A DNA stretch of 64,000 bases from Nocardioides nitrophenolicus (GTDB lineage: Bacteria; Actinomycetota; Actinomycetes; Propionibacteriales; Nocardioidaceae). The stretch's first letter is position 1. Every line of letters starts with the position of its first letter. Below, in pieces: positions 8,542 through 35,965 of the stretch. The stretch is taken from positions 5,084,001 through 5,148,000 of the forward strand of contig NZ_JAFBBY010000001.1 in the NCBI RefSeq assembly GCF_016907515.1, given 5' to 3'. The notes under the pieces are model-generated. The model was not told the DNA's origin. It worked only from the letters and a program-made list of their open reading frames with translations, and searched no databases. A program made the position numbers and the translations under genes.

Positions 8542-10503
8542 ATGGACGACCAGGGCCTGCTGCTCGCGTACGAGAGGATGATGGTCGTACGGCGGATGGA
8601 GGAGCGGATCTCCGCGCTCTACGCCGCCGACGCCATCCCCGGCTTCGTGCACACGTCCATCGGACAGGAGGCCTGCGCGGTCGGCGCCCTGCTGCACGCC
8701 CGGCCGACGGACGTGATCACCTCCACCCACCGTGGCCACGGCCACGTGCTCGCCAAGGGCCTGGAGCCGCGCCGGGTGCTTGCGGAGCTGATGGGCAAGG
8801 AGACCGGGGCCTGCCGCGGACGCGGGGGCTCGATGCACGTCGCCGACCCTTCGCTCGGCATCTTCGGCGCCAACGGCATCGTGGGGGCGGGGCTGCCCAT
8901 CGGGGTCGGCGCTGCCCACGCGCTGCGGGTGCGGGGACAAGGCGACCTCGTCGTGAGCTTCTTCGGAGACGGTGCAGTCGCGACGGGGGCCTTCCACGAG
9001 TCGGTCAATCTCGCCGCGCTCTGGCGGCTGCCGATGGTCTTCTTCTGCGAGAACAACGGATACTCCGAGTTCTCGCGTGCGGATGACCAGCACCCGGTGC
9101 CAGTGCGCGACCGCGCGGCGGCGTACGGGATCGAGGCGGTACGCCTCGACGGGTCCGACGTCGAGGCGGTGGCCGCCGGCATGCGGGAGGTGTTCGAGAC
9201 GGTGCGCGCCGGCCGGGGGCCGGTGCTCGTGGAGGCGACGACGGTGCGGGTCCATGGCCACTACGAGGGCGACCCCCAGCGCTACCGCGACGCCGCGGCG
9301 ATGGCGGCCGAGGTCGCCGCTGCGGATCCGCTGACCCTCGCCCGCGCGCGGCTCGTCGCGCGCGCGGTCCCCGCCCAGGAGATCGAGGCGACCGAGGCGC
9401 GGGCGCTGGCCGTCGTCGACGATGCGGAGGCGTTCGCACGCACGTCGGCCGAGCCGTCGGCCGAGACCGCACTCGACCACGCGTACGCGCCGCGCCGCGT
9501 CCTGCCGGAGCCCGGCCCGTTGCCCGAGGACCGCCCCGTGATGTCCCAGTCACGAGTGGTGCGACAGGCCCTCGACGACGCACTCGAGGCGAGCTCCGAG
9601 GTCTTCCTCGCCGGAATCGACGTCGCCGGGGGAAACGTCTTCGGTGTCACCCGCGGCCTCGCCCAGGCCCATCCCGGCCGGGTGCTCGACACGCCGATCT
9701 CGGAGACCGCGATCATGGGACTCGGCGTGGGTTCGGCGATGGCGGGCATGCGGCCCGTGGTCGAGCTCATGTACGTCGACTTCCTGGGAGTCTGCCTCGA
9801 CCAGCTGATGAACCAGGCGGCCAAGCTGCGGCTGATGACCGGCGGGGCCGTCAGCGTGCCGATGGTGGTACGGACCCAGTTCGGCTCGGGACGCTCCTCG
9901 GGAAGTCAGCACTCGCAGAGCCTCGAGGCACTGCTGGCCCACATCCCGGGGCTCACGGTGGTGATGCCGAGCTCGGGCACCGAGGCCTACGGTCTGCTCC
10001 GCTCGGCGATCGACGACGACAACCCGGTCGTCTTCCTCGAGCATCGACTGATCTACGAGCGGAAGTCGCCGTTGCCGCCGCCCGACTACCGGATCCCGCT
10101 CGGCCGGGCTCGGATCGCTCGCCCCGGTCGCGATGTCACGGTGGTCGCGTGGTCCCGGATGGTCGCACACGCGGTCGAGGCCGCGGAGCTGCTGGCGAGC
10201 GAGGGAATCGACGTCGAGGTGGTCGACCTGCGCTCCATCGTGCCGCTCGACCGGGACACGATCCTCGACTCCTTCGCCCGGACCAACCGGATGGTGATCG
10301 CCCAGGAGGCGGTCGTCGACTTCGGCGTGGGAGCCGAGATAGCCGCGCTCGCGGTCGACGCCGGGTTCTGGTCACTCGACGCCCCCGTCGTGCGCGTCGG
10401 GGCAGCGTATGCGCCGGCGCCGTACGCCCCCGCCCTGGAGCGGGAGTGGGGAGCGGGGGTCGACGACATCGTCGTCGCCGTCCGCAGGGTGACGGCATGC
10501 TGA
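8542..10503 (+). CDS. fused E1 alpha-beta thiamine-dependent dehydrogenase/acyl-transferring enzyme
   Basis: A 653-residue protein joining both E1 subunits of a 2-oxoacid or acetoin dehydrogenase. The alpha half (about 1-320) has the thiamine diphosphate motif, with GDG at 142-144 and ENNGYSEF about 28 residues later, and RGRGGSMH. The beta half begins near residue 334 (SRVVRQALDDAL) and has ETAIMGLGVGSAMAG plus the C-terminal transketolase-like domain. In the full complexes E1 decarboxylates a 2-oxoacid and hands the acyl group to lipoyl-E2. No E2, E3 or lipoyl domain is encoded nearby, so the partner is elsewhere or the reaction differs. GGAGG precedes the ATG. The stop overlaps the next start (ATGCTGA). 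Confidence 0.9.
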   Translation: MDDQGLLLAYERMMVVRRMEERISALYAADAIPGFVHTSIGQEACAVGALLHARPTDVITSTHRGHGHVLAKGLEPRRVLAELMGKETGACRGRGGSMHVADPSLGIFGANGIVGAGLPIGVGAAHALRVRGQGDLVVSFFGDGAVATGAFHESVNLAALWRLPMVFFCENNGYSEFSRADDQHPVPVRDRAAAYGIEAVRLDGSDVEAVAAGMREVFETVRAGRGPVLVEATTVRVHGHYEGDPQRYRDAAAMAAEVAAADPLTLARARLVARAVPAQEIEATEARALAVVDDAEAFARTSAEPSAETALDHAYAPRRVLPEPGPLPEDRPVMSQSRVVRQALDDALEASSEVFLAGIDVAGGNVFGVTRGLAQAHPGRVLDTPISETAIMGLGVGSAMAGMRPVVELMYVDFLGVCLDQLMNQAAKLRLMTGGAVSVPMVVRTQFGSGRSSGSQHSQSLEALLAHIPGLTVVMPSSGTEAYGLLRSAIDDDNPVVFLEHRLIYERKSPLPPPDYRIPLGRARIARPGRDVTVVAWSRMVAHAVEAAELLASEGIDVEVVDLRSIVPLDRDTILDSFARTNRMVIAQEAVVDFGVGAEIAALAVDAGFWSLDAPVVRVGAAYAPAPYAPALEREWGAGVDDIVVAVRRVTAC

Positions 10504-18296: not shown

Positions 18297-20369
18297 ATCG
18301 CCGACAACACCTACAACGCCGCCCACCTGCTGGTCCTCGAGGGCCTCGAAGCCGTGCGGAAGCGTCCCGGGATGTACATCGGCTCCACCGACACCCGGGG
18401 GCTCATGCACTGCCTCTGGGAGATCATCGACAACGGCGTCGACGAGGCCCTCGGCGGCTTCGCCCGCCGGGTCGAGGTGATCCTGCACGCCGACGACTCC
18501 GTCGAGGTGCACGACGACGGGCGCGGCATCCCCACCGACAAGGAGCCCAAGACCGGGCTGCCCGGCGTCGAGGTCGTGGCGACCAAGCTCCACGCGGGCG
18601 GCAAGTTCGGCGGCGGCTCGTATGTCGCCACCGGCGGCCTGCACGGCGTCGGCCTCTCGGTCGTCAACGCCTTGTCGAGCCGGATGGACATCGACGTCGA
18701 CCGCTCCCCGGCGAGCCAGGGCCTCAGCTTCCAGCGTGGCGTGCCCGGCGTCTTCGACGGCGAGGGTCCTCGCGCGTCGTTCACCCCGCAGTCCGGGCTG
18801 ACCCGCAAGGGCGGGCGGGTGGCCAAGGGGAGGTCGGGCACCCGGATCCGGTTCTGGCCGGACCGCCAGATCTTCACCAAGGACGCCGACTTCGTCCTCG
18901 ACGGCCTGATCGGCCGCGCTCGGCAGACCTCGTTCATCGTTCCCGGACTCGAGCTGGTCATCAAGGACCAGCGCGCCGCCGACCAGGGCGAGTGGACCGA
19001 GGAGAGCTTCCGTCACGACGGCGGCATCGGCGAGTTCTGCGACTACCTCGCCACCGGCGAGCCGGTCACCGAGGTGCTCCGCCTGCAGGGCAGCGACGTG
19101 TTCACCGAGACGGTCCCGCTGCTCGACGACAAGGGCCACATGACCCCGCAGGACGTCGAGCGCGAGCTCACCGTCGACGTCGCGGTGCGCTGGGGCACCG
19201 GCTACGACACCGAGCTGCGCTCCTTCGTCAACGTGATCGCCACCCCCAAGGGCGGCACCCACGTCTCCGGCTTCGAGAGCGCGCTCACCAAGACGTTCAA
19301 CGACGCGATGCGCGCCTCGAAGGCGCTCAAGGTCAACGACGACGACGTGATCAAGGACGACATCCTCGAGGGGATGACCGCGGTCGTCACGGTCCGGCTC
19401 GCCGAGCCGCAGTTCGAGGGCCAGACCAAGGAGATCCTCGGTACGCCGGCCGCGCGGACCGTCGTACGCAAGGTCGTGGCGAAGGAGCTCAAGGAGTTCC
19501 TGACCTCGACCAAGCGTGCCGAGAAGGCGCAGGCCAAGCTCCTCATGGAGAAGGTCGTCGCGGCGTCCAAGACCCGGATCGCGGCCCGCCAGCACAAGGA
19601 GACCCAGCGCCGCAAGAGCGCGCTGGAGTCCTCGACGCTGCCCGCCAAGCTCGCCGACTGCCGCTCCGGCGACAACGAGCGCACCGAGCTGTTCATCGTC
19701 GAGGGCGACTCCGCGCTCGGCACGGCCAAGCTCGCCCGCAACGCCGAGTTCCAGGCGCTGCTGCCGATCCGCGGCAAGATCCTCAACGTCCAGAAGGCGT
19801 CGGTGGGCGACATGCTCAAGAACGCCGAGTGCGCCTCGATCATCCAGGTGGTCGGCGCGGGCTCCGGCCGCACCTTCGAGCTCGACGCCCGCCGCTACGG
19901 CCGGATCATCTTCATGGCCGACGCCGACTCCGACGGCGCCCACATCCGCACCCTGCTCGCGACGCTGTTCTTCAAGTACATGCCCGACCTGGTCAAGGCC
20001 GGCCGCGTCTACTCCGCCGTGCCGCCGCTGCACCGGATCGAGATCTCCAACCCCAAGAAGGGCCAGGAGAAGTACGTCTACACCTATTCCGACGACGAGC
20101 TGCAGCGCAAGCTCGCCGAGCTGAAGAAGAAGAACGTGAAGTGGAAGGACCCGGTCCAGCGCTACAAGGGCCTCGGTGAGATGGACGCCGACCAGCTCGC
20201 CGAGACCACCATGGACCCGCGCCGCCGGACCCTGCGCCGGCTCACCGTCGACGAGCTCGAGGTCGCCTCGGAGGTGTTCGAGCTGCTCATGGGCAGCGAC
20301 GTCGCGCCGCGCAAGGAGTTCATCATCCAGGGCGCCTACGAGGTCGACATGGAGACGCTCGACGCCTGA
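18297..20369 (+). CDS. parE: DNA topoisomerase IV subunit B (ParE; GyrB-type)
   Basis: About 690 residues if begun at 18297. The GHKL ATPase motifs are EIIDN at 42-46, DDGRGIP and GGLHGVGLSVVNA. The TOPRIM motif EGDSAL starts at 469 and DADSD at 542. EGDSALGTAKLARN, in place of GyrB's EGDSAGG, and the sigma-factor neighbourhood favour ParE. The N-terminal block YNAAHLLVLEGLEAVRKRPGMY is conserved in the family, yet no ATG, GTG or TTG occurs in frame between the stop at 18249 and GTG 18354. GAGGAG at 18285-18290 points to an ATC at 18297 as start. Partner ParC is encoded at 32136-35873. Confidence 0.93.
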   Translation: MADNTYNAAHLLVLEGLEAVRKRPGMYIGSTDTRGLMHCLWEIIDNGVDEALGGFARRVEVILHADDSVEVHDDGRGIPTDKEPKTGLPGVEVVATKLHAGGKFGGGSYVATGGLHGVGLSVVNALSSRMDIDVDRSPASQGLSFQRGVPGVFDGEGPRASFTPQSGLTRKGGRVAKGRSGTRIRFWPDRQIFTKDADFVLDGLIGRARQTSFIVPGLELVIKDQRAADQGEWTEESFRHDGGIGEFCDYLATGEPVTEVLRLQGSDVFTETVPLLDDKGHMTPQDVERELTVDVAVRWGTGYDTELRSFVNVIATPKGGTHVSGFESALTKTFNDAMRASKALKVNDDDVIKDDILEGMTAVVTVRLAEPQFEGQTKEILGTPAARTVVRKVVAKELKEFLTSTKRAEKAQAKLLMEKVVAASKTRIAARQHKETQRRKSALESSTLPAKLADCRSGDNERTELFIVEGDSALGTAKLARNAEFQALLPIRGKILNVQKASVGDMLKNAECASIIQVVGAGSGRTFELDARRYGRIIFMADADSDGAHIRTLLATLFFKYMPDLVKAGRVYSAVPPLHRIEISNPKKGQEKYVYTYSDDELQRKLAELKKKNVKWKDPVQRYKGLGEMDADQLAETTMDPRRRTLRRLTVDELEVASEVFELLMGSDVAPRKEFIIQGAYEVDMETLDA

Positions 20370-32135: not shown

Positions 32136-35100
32136 TCACCCTGACACACCCAAGGTGACCTGCAGCGGACCGGCGGCCGCGGCGAGCGCCTGGCTGCCGG
32201 GGACGCCGGAGCCGTCGCGGCGGCCGGTGGCCTCCGGCAGGTCGACCGGCGCGCCGCTCGCGGCCGCGGCCCGCGCGGGCGCGGGACCCGCCCAGGCGAA
32301 CACCAGGGTGTCCTCGCCCTTGAGGAAGCGGTGGCAGCGCACGCCGCCGGTGGCCCGGCCCTTGGCGGGGTACTCCCAGAAGTCGGTCACCTTCACCGAG
32401 CACGGCTCGGTGCCGGGCAGGGCGGTCGCGGAGCCGGACGAGGTCACCAGGACCACGCCGCCGGGGGAGTTGAGGTCGAGGACGCCGAACCAGACCACCC
32501 GCTCGCGCTCGGTCACCCGGACGCCGGCCATGCCGCCGCCCGAGCGGCCCTGCGGCCGCACGCTCTCGGCGCCGTAGTGGAGCAGCTGGGCGTCGGAGGT
32601 GACGAAGCACAGCTCCTCGGTGCCGGTCGTCAGCTGGACCGCGCCGACCACCTCGTCGCCGTCCTTGAGGGAGATGACCTCCCACTCGTCCTTGTTGAGC
32701 ACCTCGGGGTTGACCCGCTTGACGACGCCCTGCCGGGTGCCGAGCGCGAGCCCGGGTCCCTCGGTGGTGAGGGTGGTGAGCGCCAGCGCCCGCTCGCCGG
32801 CGGCCAGCTCGAGCACCTCGCTGAGCGGCAGGCCGCCCTGGAGGTTCGGCTCGTTGGCCGACGGGGGGATCGCGGGCAGGTCGAGCACCGCGAGACGCAG
32901 TAGCCGGCCGGCGGAGGTGAGCACGCCGATGTCGGCGCGTGCGGTCGTGCGCACGGCGGAGACGACCACGTCGTGGTTGGCCCGGCCGCCGCCCGTGCCG
33001 ACCTCGTCGGCGCTGCTCGTGCGGGCCAGCAGACCGGTCGAGGAGAGCAGCGCGAAGCACGGGTCGTCGGCCACCTCGAGCGGCGCGGCCGCGGCGGCGA
33101 CGGCGGTGGTGCCGGCCGACTCGAGCAGGACGGTACGCCGGGGCGTGCCGAAGGTCTTGGCGACGTCGGCCAGCTCGGTGGAGACCTGCTTCTTGAGCAG
33201 GCCCTCGTCGGCGAGGATCGCGTCGAGCTCCTCGATCTCCTTGCGCAGCTCCTCCTGCTCCTTCTCCAGCTCGAGGCGGGAGAACCGGGTGAGCCGGCGC
33301 AGCTGCATCTCGAGGATGTACTCGGCCTGGACCTCGGAGAGCTCGAAGACCGTCATCAGCCGCTCCTTGGCGGCCGCCGAGTTGTCGCTCGTGCGGATCA
33401 CCTGGATCACCTCGTCGATGTCGAGGAGGGCCAGCAGCAGGCCGTCGACCAGGTGGAGGCGGGCGGCCTTCTTGTTGCGGCGGAACTGCGAGCGGCGCCG
33501 GACGACGTCGTAGCGGTGCTCGAGGAAGACCTCGAGCATCTCCTTGAGGCCCATGGTGCGAGGCTGGCCGTCGACGAGCGCGACGTTGTTGATGCCGAAG
33601 GAGTCCTCGAGCGGGGTCAGCTTGTAGAGCTGCTCGAGCAGCGCCTCGGGCACGAAGCCGTTCTTGACCTCGATCACCAGCCGCAGGCCGTTCTCGCGGT
33701 CGGTGAGGTCCTTGATGTCGGCGATGCCCTGCAGCTTCTTCGACTGCACCAGCACCTTGATCCGCTCGACGACCTTCTCGGTGCCGACGCCGTAGGGCAG
33801 CTCGGTGACGACGATGCCCTTGCGCCGCCCGATCGTCTCGACCCGCGCGGTCGCCCGCATCTTGAACACGCCCCGGCCGGTCTCGTAGGCGTCGCGGATC
33901 CCGTCGAGGCCCACGATCTTGCCGCCGGTGGGCAGGTCGGGGCCCGGGATGAACCGCATCAGGCCGTCGATGTCGGTCTTGGGGTGCTGGATCAGGTGGC
34001 GCAGCGCCTGGACCACCTCGACCAGGTTGTGGGGCGCCATGTTGGTGGCCATGCCGACCGCGATGCCGGTCGTGCCGTTGACGACGAGGTTGGGGATCGC
34101 CGAGGGGAGCACGGTCGGCTCGTGCTCGCGGCTGTCGTAGTTGGGCTTGAAGTCGACGGTGTCCTCGTCGATCGACTCGGTCATCGCCAGCGCCGGCGGC
34201 GCCATCCGGCACTCGGTGTTGTGGTTGACGAAGCCGCCCGCGAGGAAGGAGTGGTCCTCGCTTTCGACCCGGATCGAATAGACGGGCGCGGGCGCCTCGT
34301 CCTCGACCGTGGCGACCTCGACGAAGCGGTAGCCGGAGTCCATCACCGACGCCACGACGGCGAGGACCTCCGGATCCTTGAACTTCGTCACCAGCAGACT
34401 GCGGTCGGCCTGCCAGCGTTCCATGCGGTCGAAGTTGTGTTGCAGGAGCCAGGACTTGCCGGTGCCCCGGCCCTCGCCCAGGGAGTCGCGGACGTAGTCG
34501 GCGACGTAGGGCGCGAAGTCGCGCGAGAGCCGGTGGGTGTAGCGCGGCAAGCCGCGGAGCAGGCCTTCCAGCTTCCGGCGCTTCTCGGTCAGGAATCCCA
34601 CCCGCTCCGCGAACGCGTGCAGGTTGTGGAGCCCCGAGATCACGATCCGGTACTCGCCCCGGAGGTAGTGGGTCAGGTTGCTGTGGACACCGAACTCGAG
34701 GAGCAGCTCCTGAATCCCGGCGGCGAGCACCTTGCTGTAGGTCGAGTACTGGATGGTGATCGAGTTGCCGCCGACCTGGTGAACGCCGCCGTCGCCCTCG
34801 AACAGCGCCATCAGGAAGGCGCGCTTGAGACCGGGGGAGCCCTGCCAGACCAGCTCCGGGATGAACTTGTCGGCGGCCTGATGGCCGATCAGCGGAGCGA
34901 GCGGGCTCGCCGCGAAGGCCTGCATGTTCTGGATGTCGAGCTCGTGGATGACGCGCCCCGAGCGCCGGGTCTCGCGCGAGGAGACGTAACGCGGTCCGCC
35001 CACGATCGCGTCGTACGCCTCGACCACGTACTGGAAGTACTCGTGGTCGGTGTTGCTGAACCCGGCGCGCGCGGCGCTGGCGAAGCCCTCGGAGGCCCAG

Positions 35101-35873
35101 CCGCCGAGCAGCGTGCCGAGCATCATCTCGTAGGCCATCGGGATCTCGGTGACCCAGGCGTTGCGGGCCAGGCAGACGACGGTCCCCGGTGTGATCTCGT
35201 CGAGGCGACGCCACTGGAACATCGGCACACCCGCGATCGGGACGAGGCACAGGAGTGGATGGTTGTGGCTGCCGGCGATCGAGTGGCCGCTGCGCGTCGT
35301 GACCCGCTTGATCGGGTGGGTGCCGGAGTTGAACACCTTGGTGACGCGGACGGCCTTGCCGTCCTTGTCGAGCACCTCGAAGTCGGCGTCGGCCTCGGCG
35401 TTCTCGGGCAGGGCGACGAGCTCGTCGATCCGGACCGAGCCACCGTCGGCGAGCCGGACCCGGGCGTCGCCGGTCAGGCAGTACCGCATCGCGGCCGGCG
35501 GGTCGTCGGGCGATCCGAAGTTGCCGTGTCCGTCGATGAACGGCAGCCGCAGCGACCACGACTGGGCGGTGCGGACCAGGGCGTCGTAGATCGCCCCGTC
35601 GCCGTGAGGGTGCAGCCGACCCATGACCTCGCCGACGACGCGGGCGGACTTCACATGCCCCCGGTCGGGCCGGAGGCTCATGTCGTTCATCGTGTAGAGG
35701 ATCCGGCGCTGCACCGGCTTCAGCCCGTCGCGCGCGTCGGGCAGGGCGCGGGAGTAGATGACGGAGTAGGCGTACTCCAGGAAGGACGACTGCATCTCGT
35801 CGCGGATGTCGGTGTCGAGGATGTGCTCCTCGAAGTCCTCGGGGAGGGGATCCTGCTTGGTGCGCCGTGCCAT
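32136..35873 (-). CDS. parC: DNA topoisomerase IV subunit A (ParC), interrupted by an intein
   Basis: A 1245-codon frame: an 824-residue GyrA-type subunit carrying a 421-residue in-frame intein after the catalytic tyrosine. The N-terminus has EYAYSVIYSRALPDARDGLKPVQRRILY, the winged-helix block VVGEVMGRLHPHGD and AAMRY with Tyr131; the protein resumes at Thr553 with TECRMAPPA. The C-terminal beta-pinwheel lacks a canonical GyrA box (only PQGRSGGGMAG), which favours ParC over GyrA, as does proximity to parE and the sigma factor. ParC with ParE unlinks daughter chromosomes. The ATG at 35873 is chosen; ATG 35882 is possible. Protein splicing is needed for function. Confidence 0.95.
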   Translation of the reverse strand: MARRTKQDPLPEDFEEHILDTDIRDEMQSSFLEYAYSVIYSRALPDARDGLKPVQRRILYTMNDMSLRPDRGHVKSARVVGEVMGRLHPHGDGAIYDALVRTAQSWSLRLPFIDGHGNFGSPDDPPAAMRYCLTGDARVRLADGGSVRIDELVALPENAEADADFEVLDKDGKAVRVTKVFNSGTHPIKRVTTRSGHSIAGSHNHPLLCLVPIAGVPMFQWRRLDEITPGTVVCLARNAWVTEIPMAYEMMLGTLLGGWASEGFASAARAGFSNTDHEYFQYVVEAYDAIVGGPRYVSSRETRRSGRVIHELDIQNMQAFAASPLAPLIGHQAADKFIPELVWQGSPGLKRAFLMALFEGDGGVHQVGGNSITIQYSTYSKVLAAGIQELLLEFGVHSNLTHYLRGEYRIVISGLHNLHAFAERVGFLTEKRRKLEGLLRGLPRYTHRLSRDFAPYVADYVRDSLGEGRGTGKSWLLQHNFDRMERWQADRSLLVTKFKDPEVLAVVASVMDSGYRFVEVATVEDEAPAPVYSIRVESEDHSFLAGGFVNHNTECRMAPPALAMTESIDEDTVDFKPNYDSREHEPTVLPSAIPNLVVNGTTGIAVGMATNMAPHNLVEVVQALRHLIQHPKTDIDGLMRFIPGPDLPTGGKIVGLDGIRDAYETGRGVFKMRATARVETIGRRKGIVVTELPYGVGTEKVVERIKVLVQSKKLQGIADIKDLTDRENGLRLVIEVKNGFVPEALLEQLYKLTPLEDSFGINNVALVDGQPRTMGLKEMLEVFLEHRYDVVRRRSQFRRNKKAARLHLVDGLLLALLDIDEVIQVIRTSDNSAAAKERLMTVFELSEVQAEYILEMQLRRLTRFSRLELEKEQEELRKEIEELDAILADEGLLKKQVSTELADVAKTFGTPRRTVLLESAGTTAVAAAAAPLEVADDPCFALLSSTGLLARTSSADEVGTGGGRANHDVVVSAVRTTARADIGVLTSAGRLLRLAVLDLPAIPPSANEPNLQGGLPLSEVLELAAGERALALTTLTTEGPGLALGTRQGVVKRVNPEVLNKDEWEVISLKDGDEVVGAVQLTTGTEELCFVTSDAQLLHYGAESVRPQGRSGGGMAGVRVTERERVVWFGVLDLNSPGGVVLVTSSGSATALPGTEPCSVKVTDFWEYPAKGRATGGVRCHRFLKGEDTLVFAWAGPAPARAAAASGAPVDLPEATGRRDGSGVPGSQALAAAAGPLQVTLGVSG
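34218..35480 (-). mobile_element. GyrA-type intein with LAGLIDADG homing endonuclease domain
   Basis: A 421-codon in-frame insertion between Tyr131 and Thr553 of ParC. It starts with Cys1 (CLTGDARVRLADGG) and ends FVNHN, with Thr as the +1 residue; all splicing residues are present: Cys1, block B GSHNHPLL with His74, penultimate His420 and Asn421. The N- and C-terminal blocks closely follow the mycobacterial GyrA intein family (TGDA.V, NHPLLCL, PVYSIRV). Between them are two dodecapeptide motifs, LLGGWASEGF (124-133) and FLMALFEGDGG (222-232), with the intervening KFIP motif, so the homing endonuclease may still be active. Confidence 0.95.
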
Positions 35874-35965
35874 GGGGGGCATTCTTCCGGGTGGGTCCGA
35901 CACGCGTGGCAGGGGCACGCCGTGGGCCGCGATGATTCGGGCCCGCGCGACCGGTCTGCCCCACC

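Follow-up and report, generated by a model that had tools for sequence, protein, structure and literature searches.

A LAGLIDADG-containing class 1 intein at the catalytic tyrosine of ParC in Nocardioides nitrophenolicus, from a family that appears to have crossed between gyrA and parC

In the window analyzed here, a 64,000-nt stretch of the Nocardioides nitrophenolicus genome (RefSeq assembly GCF_016907515.1, contig NZ_JAFBBY010000001.1, positions 5,084,001 to 5,148,000), the gene encoding the topoisomerase IV subunit ParC is interrupted in frame by a long insertion. It falls directly after the tyrosine at position -1, which we take to be the catalytic tyrosine of the A subunit of type IIA topoisomerases. 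An original prediction, made from the DNA letters alone, had proposed that this segment is a GyrA-type intein, and the sequence evidence presented below confirms it as a class 1 intein that harbors a homing endonuclease of the LAGLIDADG type. Our overall reading, to which we assign a probability of roughly 87%, is that the intein would splice to yield an 824-residue ParC, that its lineage would have spread patchily by homing among the parC genes of Actinomycetota, and that there would have been a deeper crossing to or from gyrA.

Structure of the Interrupted Gene

In the translation of the precursor gene (Table 1), a type IIA topoisomerase A subunit breaks off at ...PPAAMRY and resumes at TECRMAPP... 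after 421 intervening codons, a length and boundaries that agree exactly with those predicted. The insertion point, between the Tyr and the Thr of an RY/TE motif, is the site of GyrA-type inteins. All the residues expected of a class 1 intein are present (Cys1, S71xxH74 in block B, His420-Asn421, and Thr+1), in agreement with the claim that the splicing residues are intact, and Cys1, His74, His420, Asn421, Thr+1, and Tyr-1 are kept in 124/124 full-length relatives, that is, the inteins of the first tree described below. The predicted structure and its matches in the PDB identify a Hint fold, and the similarity to splicing domains on which the prediction stood or fell is found in matches to both Hint and intein families. 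The two LAGLIDADG motifs were found as claimed, with their presumed catalytic acids, Glu131 and Asp230, both intact. The intein is not marked as foreign by its composition, since its G+C content (68.5%) is close to that of the exteins (69.4 and 71.9%).

Table 1. Features of the interrupted parC gene and of its presumed partner, in window coordinates
Feature	Position	Strand	Description
ParC precursor gene, intein included	32136..35918	-	Single open frame, 1260 codons from GTG 35918
N-extein	35481..35873	-	Ends ...GNFGSPDDPPAAMRY, Tyr at -1; PF00521 piece, profile 1-93
Intein	34218..35480	-	421 aa, Cys1 to Asn421
Hint splicing domain, N-terminal part	35157..35480	-	Residues ~1-108, contains block B His74
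LAGLIDADG homing endonuclease domain and accessory helices	34371..35138	-	Residues ~115-370; Pfam LAGLIDADG_3 (PF14528), model and PDB matches
LAGLIDADG motif 1	35085..35123	-	Residues 120-132; Glu131 is the presumed catalytic acid
LAGLIDADG motif 2	34788..34817	-	Residues 222-231; Asp230 is the presumed catalytic acid
Hint domain, C-terminal part	34218..34349	-	Residues ~378-421, last residues FVNHN
C-extein	32136..34217	-	Starts TECRMAPPALAM, Thr+1; stop codon included; GyrA-box absent
GyrB/ParE-type subunit, presumed ParC partner	18354..20369	+	~12 kb away; true start may be upstream

The true start of the protein is probably ATG 35873 (the M of MARRTKQ) rather than GTG 35918, because the length of the N-extein then falls within the range of 122-135 residues found ahead of Cys1 in 32 of the 33 homologues whose N-junction was displayed (the exception, P0025, has 105). 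From the ATG, 131 residues precede Cys1, as against 146 from the GTG. The intein-free protein would thus count 824 residues from the ATG and 839 from the GTG, and the unspliced precursor from the ATG would count 1245.

As for known systems, NF038098, the family of intein-containing DNA gyrase subunit A, has its intein at the same site and our intein aligns with it over its full length, scoring 408.9 bits, which bears out the claimed homology to GyrA inteins. The two differ in their host, which is ParC here, and the whole protein scores 1067.9 bits against a family cut-off of 1850. The GyrA mini-intein of Mycobacterium xenopi (PDB 1am2, 4oz6), a 199-residue chain from a GyrA host, has lost its endonuclease, in contrast to our intein, which sits in ParC and has kept a two-motif endonuclease. 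The intein endonucleases PI-PkoII (2cw7), PI-PfuI (1dq3), and TliVMA (7qss), which are archaeal, come from other hosts and sites and show 19-22% identity.

Distribution and Empty Alleles

A protein search in which 7992 candidates were scored retained 1083 relatives at E <= 0.001. Among the matches listed (the best 120 of the 1083), many of the named ones are called DNA gyrase subunit A yet classify as ParC. Relatives of the intein are found in the ParC proteins of Nocardioides, Kribbella, Pseudonocardiaceae, and Micromonosporaceae. While the original prediction had treated the ParC host as an oddity, such hosts are common: the first tree holds 124 full-length inteins, and 75 of them come from ParC, although this set was collected by similarity to this ParC intein and is therefore biased towards ParC.

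Within the genus, the distribution is patchy. A whole-genome search matched the intein in 4 of 215 Nocardioides genomes, one of the matches being a DnaB intein, which leaves the ParC intein in 3/215, and no GyrA intein was found among these 215 genomes at the cut-off used. Seven of the 198 genomes of the family match, with two ParC inteins (G000, which is this genome, and G029), four of GyrA type (G001, G012, G052, and G034, the last assigned by its N-flank), and one in DnaB. The corresponding counts are 24/394 for the window's class and 6/148, G698 included, for the class of the Acidimicrobiia genome G698. The intein of G333, from the same genus, is identical to that of L075, from an uncultured Nocardioides. 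Two suggestions of the original prediction could be followed up at this level. The second copy sought in this genome's gyrA was not found, that gene being intein-free, and the genome holds no second match to the N-terminal model of the intein. Empty alleles, on the other hand, do occur in related Nocardioides. Among the 29 empty alleles of the genus that we compared, G250 comes closest, with 94.9% identity in the parC C-extein and 94.4% in gyrA, and because so close a relative has an empty parC, its sequence indicates that the gain in this genome's line, or a precise loss in G250, is recent.

The searches also returned elements of other kinds. The remote matches L160 (G276, same genus) and L010 (G119, same family) are DnaB inteins with 29% identity, and the L010 frame apparently contains two inteins in one DnaB. 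Several ParC precursors of ~1390-1690 aa (L045, L056, L059, P0046, P0055, P0058, P0062, P0090, and P0110) seemingly carry a second, different intein; PF13403 is listed for the long precursors among the P records, and the second intein of L045 ends just before CMGKYHPHGD. The record of P0025, a protein with a ParC intein, is assigned to the plant Rhynchospora breviuscula, most likely through bacterial contamination of the assembly. Finally, G212 (a single contig) was rejected as a multiple-intein genome: both of its A-subunit genes (8592-9925 and 1508696-1510013) match in several separate frames, most likely as a result of sequence errors.

Endonuclease and Insertion Site

Asp230 is present in 124/124 full-length relatives, and position 131 is occupied by an acid in 120 of them. 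In 17 pairs of relatives (14 ParC, 3 GyrA), the ratio of nonsynonymous to synonymous substitution rates (dN/dS) is 0.060-0.194 over the endonuclease region, compared with 0.030-0.162 over the splicing region. Since dN/dS is low over the endonuclease region, it can be read from these sequences that the endonuclease is kept by purifying selection in the relatives' lines. Shortened ParC inteins of 273-381 aa from which part or all of the endonuclease is gone have also been found (L080, L081, L083-L088, and P0053), one of which, the 354-aa P0053, is from a Nocardioides metagenome-assembled genome (MAG).

Comparison of the two A-subunit genes of this genome reveals that parC and gyrA share 37 consecutive identical nucleotides over the insertion point, 15 upstream and 22 downstream. 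Going upstream, the match first breaks at -16, and near residue -10 gyrA contains an extra codon relative to parC (GNFGSPGNDPAAAMRY vs. GNFGSPDDPPAAMRY). We considered whether carriers have unusually alike gyrA and parC sites, and rejected this idea: the two sites are identical at 31-38 of 40 nt in 31 genomes (29 non-carriers and 2 carriers), and the 38/40 nt of this genome is also seen in three non-carriers. The unbroken run of 37 nt is nonetheless the longest among the 31 genomes. The Arg codon at -2, next to the 35480/35481 junction, is CGG in 3/3 carriers vs. 3/29 empty genus alleles (Fisher p 0.004), a pattern that was noticed post hoc with three carriers only, and that could reflect either co-conversion or a target requirement.

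Several points weigh against an endonuclease that is active and homing in this genome. The 17 dN/dS pairs are from relatives outside Nocardioides, a genus in which pairs close enough were lacking, the more distant ones are near silent-site saturation (dS > 1 in some), and two include a member without an acid at 131 (L071 and L074). No co-conversion tract was detected between this genome's parC and that of G250, which differ at 5 positions in the 60 nt around the junction (8%) and at 60 positions over the 1080 nt that follow (6%); this comparison was ungapped and failed at indels in other genomes, so G250 alone was used. The genome's own gyrA is empty despite the 37-nt identity, when an active and unselective endonuclease would predict otherwise. 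Three explanations offer themselves: recognition by the endonuclease extends more than 15 nt upstream, the enzyme has no activity in this genome, or breaks in gyrA are repaired without copying. The second of these options, with the intein persisting by splicing alone, would fit the empty and near-identical gyrA site in the same cell, the occurrence of endonuclease-reduced relatives, and the loss of the acid at 131 in 4/124 relatives. We nevertheless regard it as rather unlikely, since both presumed catalytic acids are intact here, purifying selection extends across the endonuclease in relatives, and the empty allele of a close relative suggests a recent gain.

Relationships Among GyrA and ParC Inteins

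We extracted 197 inteins, a number that includes near-copies and repeat records and is confined to loci with junctions recognized by the search patterns (L009, for example, falls outside it). The first tree contains 124 of these, after removal of duplicates, fragments, inteins shorter than 400 aa, and part of the P series. A careful tree and the identity tables are based on 53 inteins, and a rooted tree on 31 of these plus two DnaB inteins; L045 (second intein) was excluded from alignment A2. The labels Acidimicrobiia-type and Actinomycetes GyrA are our own: of the 14 Acidimicrobiia-type rows, L043 alone carries this name in the database, whereas genomes of the window's class or family supplied the 10 rows of Actinomycetes GyrA.

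Two lineages can be distinguished. Lineage A consists of GyrA inteins of Actinomycetes, including those from other genera of the window's family (L006-L008), and lineage B consists of every ParC intein of the set together with the Acidimicrobiia-type GyrA inteins. The GyrA and ParC labels change three times on both the 124- and the 53-intein trees, with two changes forced by the starred branches, and once on the extein tree; a single change was obtained in 0/200 bootstrap trees of the 53 inteins. The identity values tell a similar story. On average, the Acidimicrobiia-type GyrA inteins are 70.1% identical to the ParC inteins of Pseudonocardiaceae/Micromonosporaceae, 61.1% to the Nocardioides-type ParC inteins, and 43.8% to the Actinomycetes GyrA inteins, whereas the exteins show the reverse order, with 53.2, 55.6, and 58.7%, respectively. 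Within each of five groups, extein similarity is higher than intein similarity. The Pseudonocardiaceae/Micromonosporaceae ParC inteins, which share both insertion site and host paralogue with ours and are often annotated as DNA gyrase subunit A or DNA topoisomerase IV, show 59.8% mean identity to the Nocardioides-type. They differ from the latter by a four-residue insertion, carried by 12/12 of them and by 14/14 Acidimicrobiia-type GyrA inteins, but by 0/27 others. The Nocardioides-type ParC inteins show 44.7% mean identity to the 10 Actinomycetes GyrA inteins.

On these grounds, the intein family appears to have crossed between gyrA and parC deep in its history. The approximately unbiased (AU) tests weigh against this conclusion, as a tree with all GyrA inteins together was not rejected (p 0.18, or p 0.0755 under LG+G4, a simpler model), and neither was one holding together the 14 Acidimicrobiia-type inteins (p 0.442). 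We give more weight to the contrast in identity, as evidence for one or more crossings in either direction. Rooting with the two DnaB inteins produced a very long outgroup branch and lower support, and we therefore claim no direction of transfer. The AU tests with all GyrA inteins grouped, and the restriction of lineage A to GyrA hosts in our sets, would suit an intein that predates the gyrA/parC split and was lost many times, with no transfer between paralogues. Such vertical descent is improbable, as it has to account for Acidimicrobiia-type GyrA inteins that resemble ParC inteins far more than other GyrA inteins while their exteins do the opposite, for the shared four-residue insertion, and for the lack of one-change trees among the bootstraps.

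Some carriers deserve separate mention. G698 and G699 (Acidimicrobiia-type) and G700 (Dormibacterota) have one A-subunit gene each, split by the intein; these are MAGs, from which a second gene may be missing. A possible target rule, by which lineage B would occupy sites without the GND insertion of Actinomycetes GyrA, was dropped because it is not strict. The GND-insertion pattern occurs in 0/27 readable sites (29 loci) of the class of G698, and inteins of that class that are nearest lineage A (L243, L244, and L246) occupy similar sites, L245 being unparsed and L247 ambiguous. In Actinokineospora spheciospongiae (G570/G701; L086, L179, L183, and L184), both genes contain inteins, the one in ParC nearest lineage B and the one in GyrA nearest lineage A.

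Identity of the Host

The genome (one contig of 5.8 Mb) has two A-subunit genes. The other one (L001) encodes an intein-free protein of 899 aa with the GyrA-box QKRGGKG, lies ~1 kb from a GyrB-type gene, and passes the GyrA equivalog cut-off (1153.9 vs. 902 bits). The intein host is thus neither gyrase A nor the only gyrA of this genome, as the original prediction required. It remains under the same cut-off (725 vs. 902 bits) and, scored with the intein left in place, under both NCBIfam ParC equivalog cut-offs (534.5 vs. 813.25 and 505.9 vs. 628.9 bits), these models having presumably been built for other phyla; it reaches a subfamily model only (847.5 vs. 654). Instead of a GyrA-box, it displays PQGRSGGGMAG at that place. 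In a survey of exteins, the GyrA-box pattern is missing from ParC-labelled hosts, except P0008, and the five GyrA-labelled hosts without it (L168, L184, P0061, P0081, and P0111) have an incomplete C-extein. In a tree of 138 exteins (124 hosts and 14 empty alleles, labelled ParC or GyrA by BLAST against the two proteins of this genome), the ParC and GyrA exteins are split by one branch, with a Shimodaira-Hasegawa-like approximate likelihood ratio (SH-aLRT) support of 100. The window also contains a GyrB/ParE-type gene (Table 1), the second such gene besides the one near gyrA. It scores under every GyrB/ParE cut-off, its best value being 713.8 vs. 740 for the DNA gyrase subunit B subfamily, and would be named ParE from its context.

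As a second A subunit beside a bona fide GyrA, without a GyrA-box and within the ParC clade, the host is best assigned to ParC. That it might be a second, diverged GyrA is most unlikely: many such proteins are recorded as DNA gyrase subunit A, the ParC equivalog cut-offs are missed, and the nearby B subunit scores highest with a gyrase B model, though below its cut-off, but the host also misses the GyrA equivalog that the other gene attains with 1154 bits, forms its own clade without a GyrA-box, and has a second GyrB/ParE-type gene nearby.

Discussion

In the mechanism that we propose, the intein sits between the codons of the catalytic Tyr and the next residue of parC. Cys1 would attack the Tyr-Cys bond (N-S shift), with block B His74 assisting, and the N-extein would then pass to Thr+1. 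Asn421 would cyclize with the assistance of His420, and Tyr would be joined to Thr in an 824-residue ParC. The endonuclease would cleave alleles that lack the intein at this position, and repair would insert a copy of it. The lineage may have spread patchily among parC alleles of Actinomycetota, with a deeper crossing to or from gyrA, whose catalytic-Tyr sequence is nearly identical. Splicing, cutting, and the essentiality of the enzyme are inferred, as are the number and direction of the crossings. The cell would depend on splicing (ESSENTIALITY), as the original prediction had it, only if ParC is essential here, and this is not assured, since some Streptomyces that have a linear chromosome can do without topoisomerase IV.

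The proposal that the intein was transferred between paralogous targets stands in part. Label changes and the identity contrast speak for a crossing in the wider family, against AU tests that do not reject the alternatives, and no local jump from gyrA to parC is indicated, because the ParC and GyrA inteins of the window's family (L006-L008) belong to different lineages and the genome's own gyrA is empty. That the parC intein descends recently from an intein in gyrA, whether here or in a related Nocardioides, as the 37 identical nucleotides might suggest, is hardly credible, given that L006-L008 are 43-45% identical and group apart from the ParC inteins, that site identity as high as 38/40 nt is usual, and that the search of the 215 genus genomes returned no GyrA intein at the cut-off used. 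It is quite possible, if short of probable, that one intein lineage uses the catalytic-Tyr codons common to gyrA and parC and has travelled between the paralogues across bacterial classes, and that in carriers with an empty second paralogue something, either upstream base contact or repair, protects the near-identical site.

Inteins at this point of GyrA are already known, and the element itself is ordinary; its interest lies in the ParC host and the cross-paralogue history. Excerpts of a 2006 study (PMC1635734) state that inteins at matching sites of homologous genes are usually nearest kin to one another, report that paralogous subunits of RNA polymerase carry inteins, for the most part at different sites, and consider that some non-allelic inteins might have moved ectopically. 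An excerpt of a 2018 review (PMC5874633) includes DNA gyrase subunits A and B among the hosts of inteins. Among the titles and abstract openings listed in the literature searches, several of which gave shortened lists, no paper deals with ParC or topoisomerase IV inteins, and an earlier description is possible.

ParC proteins with inteins are widespread across Actinomycetota, though many go by the name of DNA gyrase subunit A. In the family described here, a single lineage occupies both paralogous hosts, and its inteins are more alike than their exteins. The system also lends itself to asking, in nature, whether a homing endonuclease can discriminate between paralogues. Splicing would take place at the active site of a presumed decatenating enzyme, and conditional splicing could thus matter for chromosome segregation.

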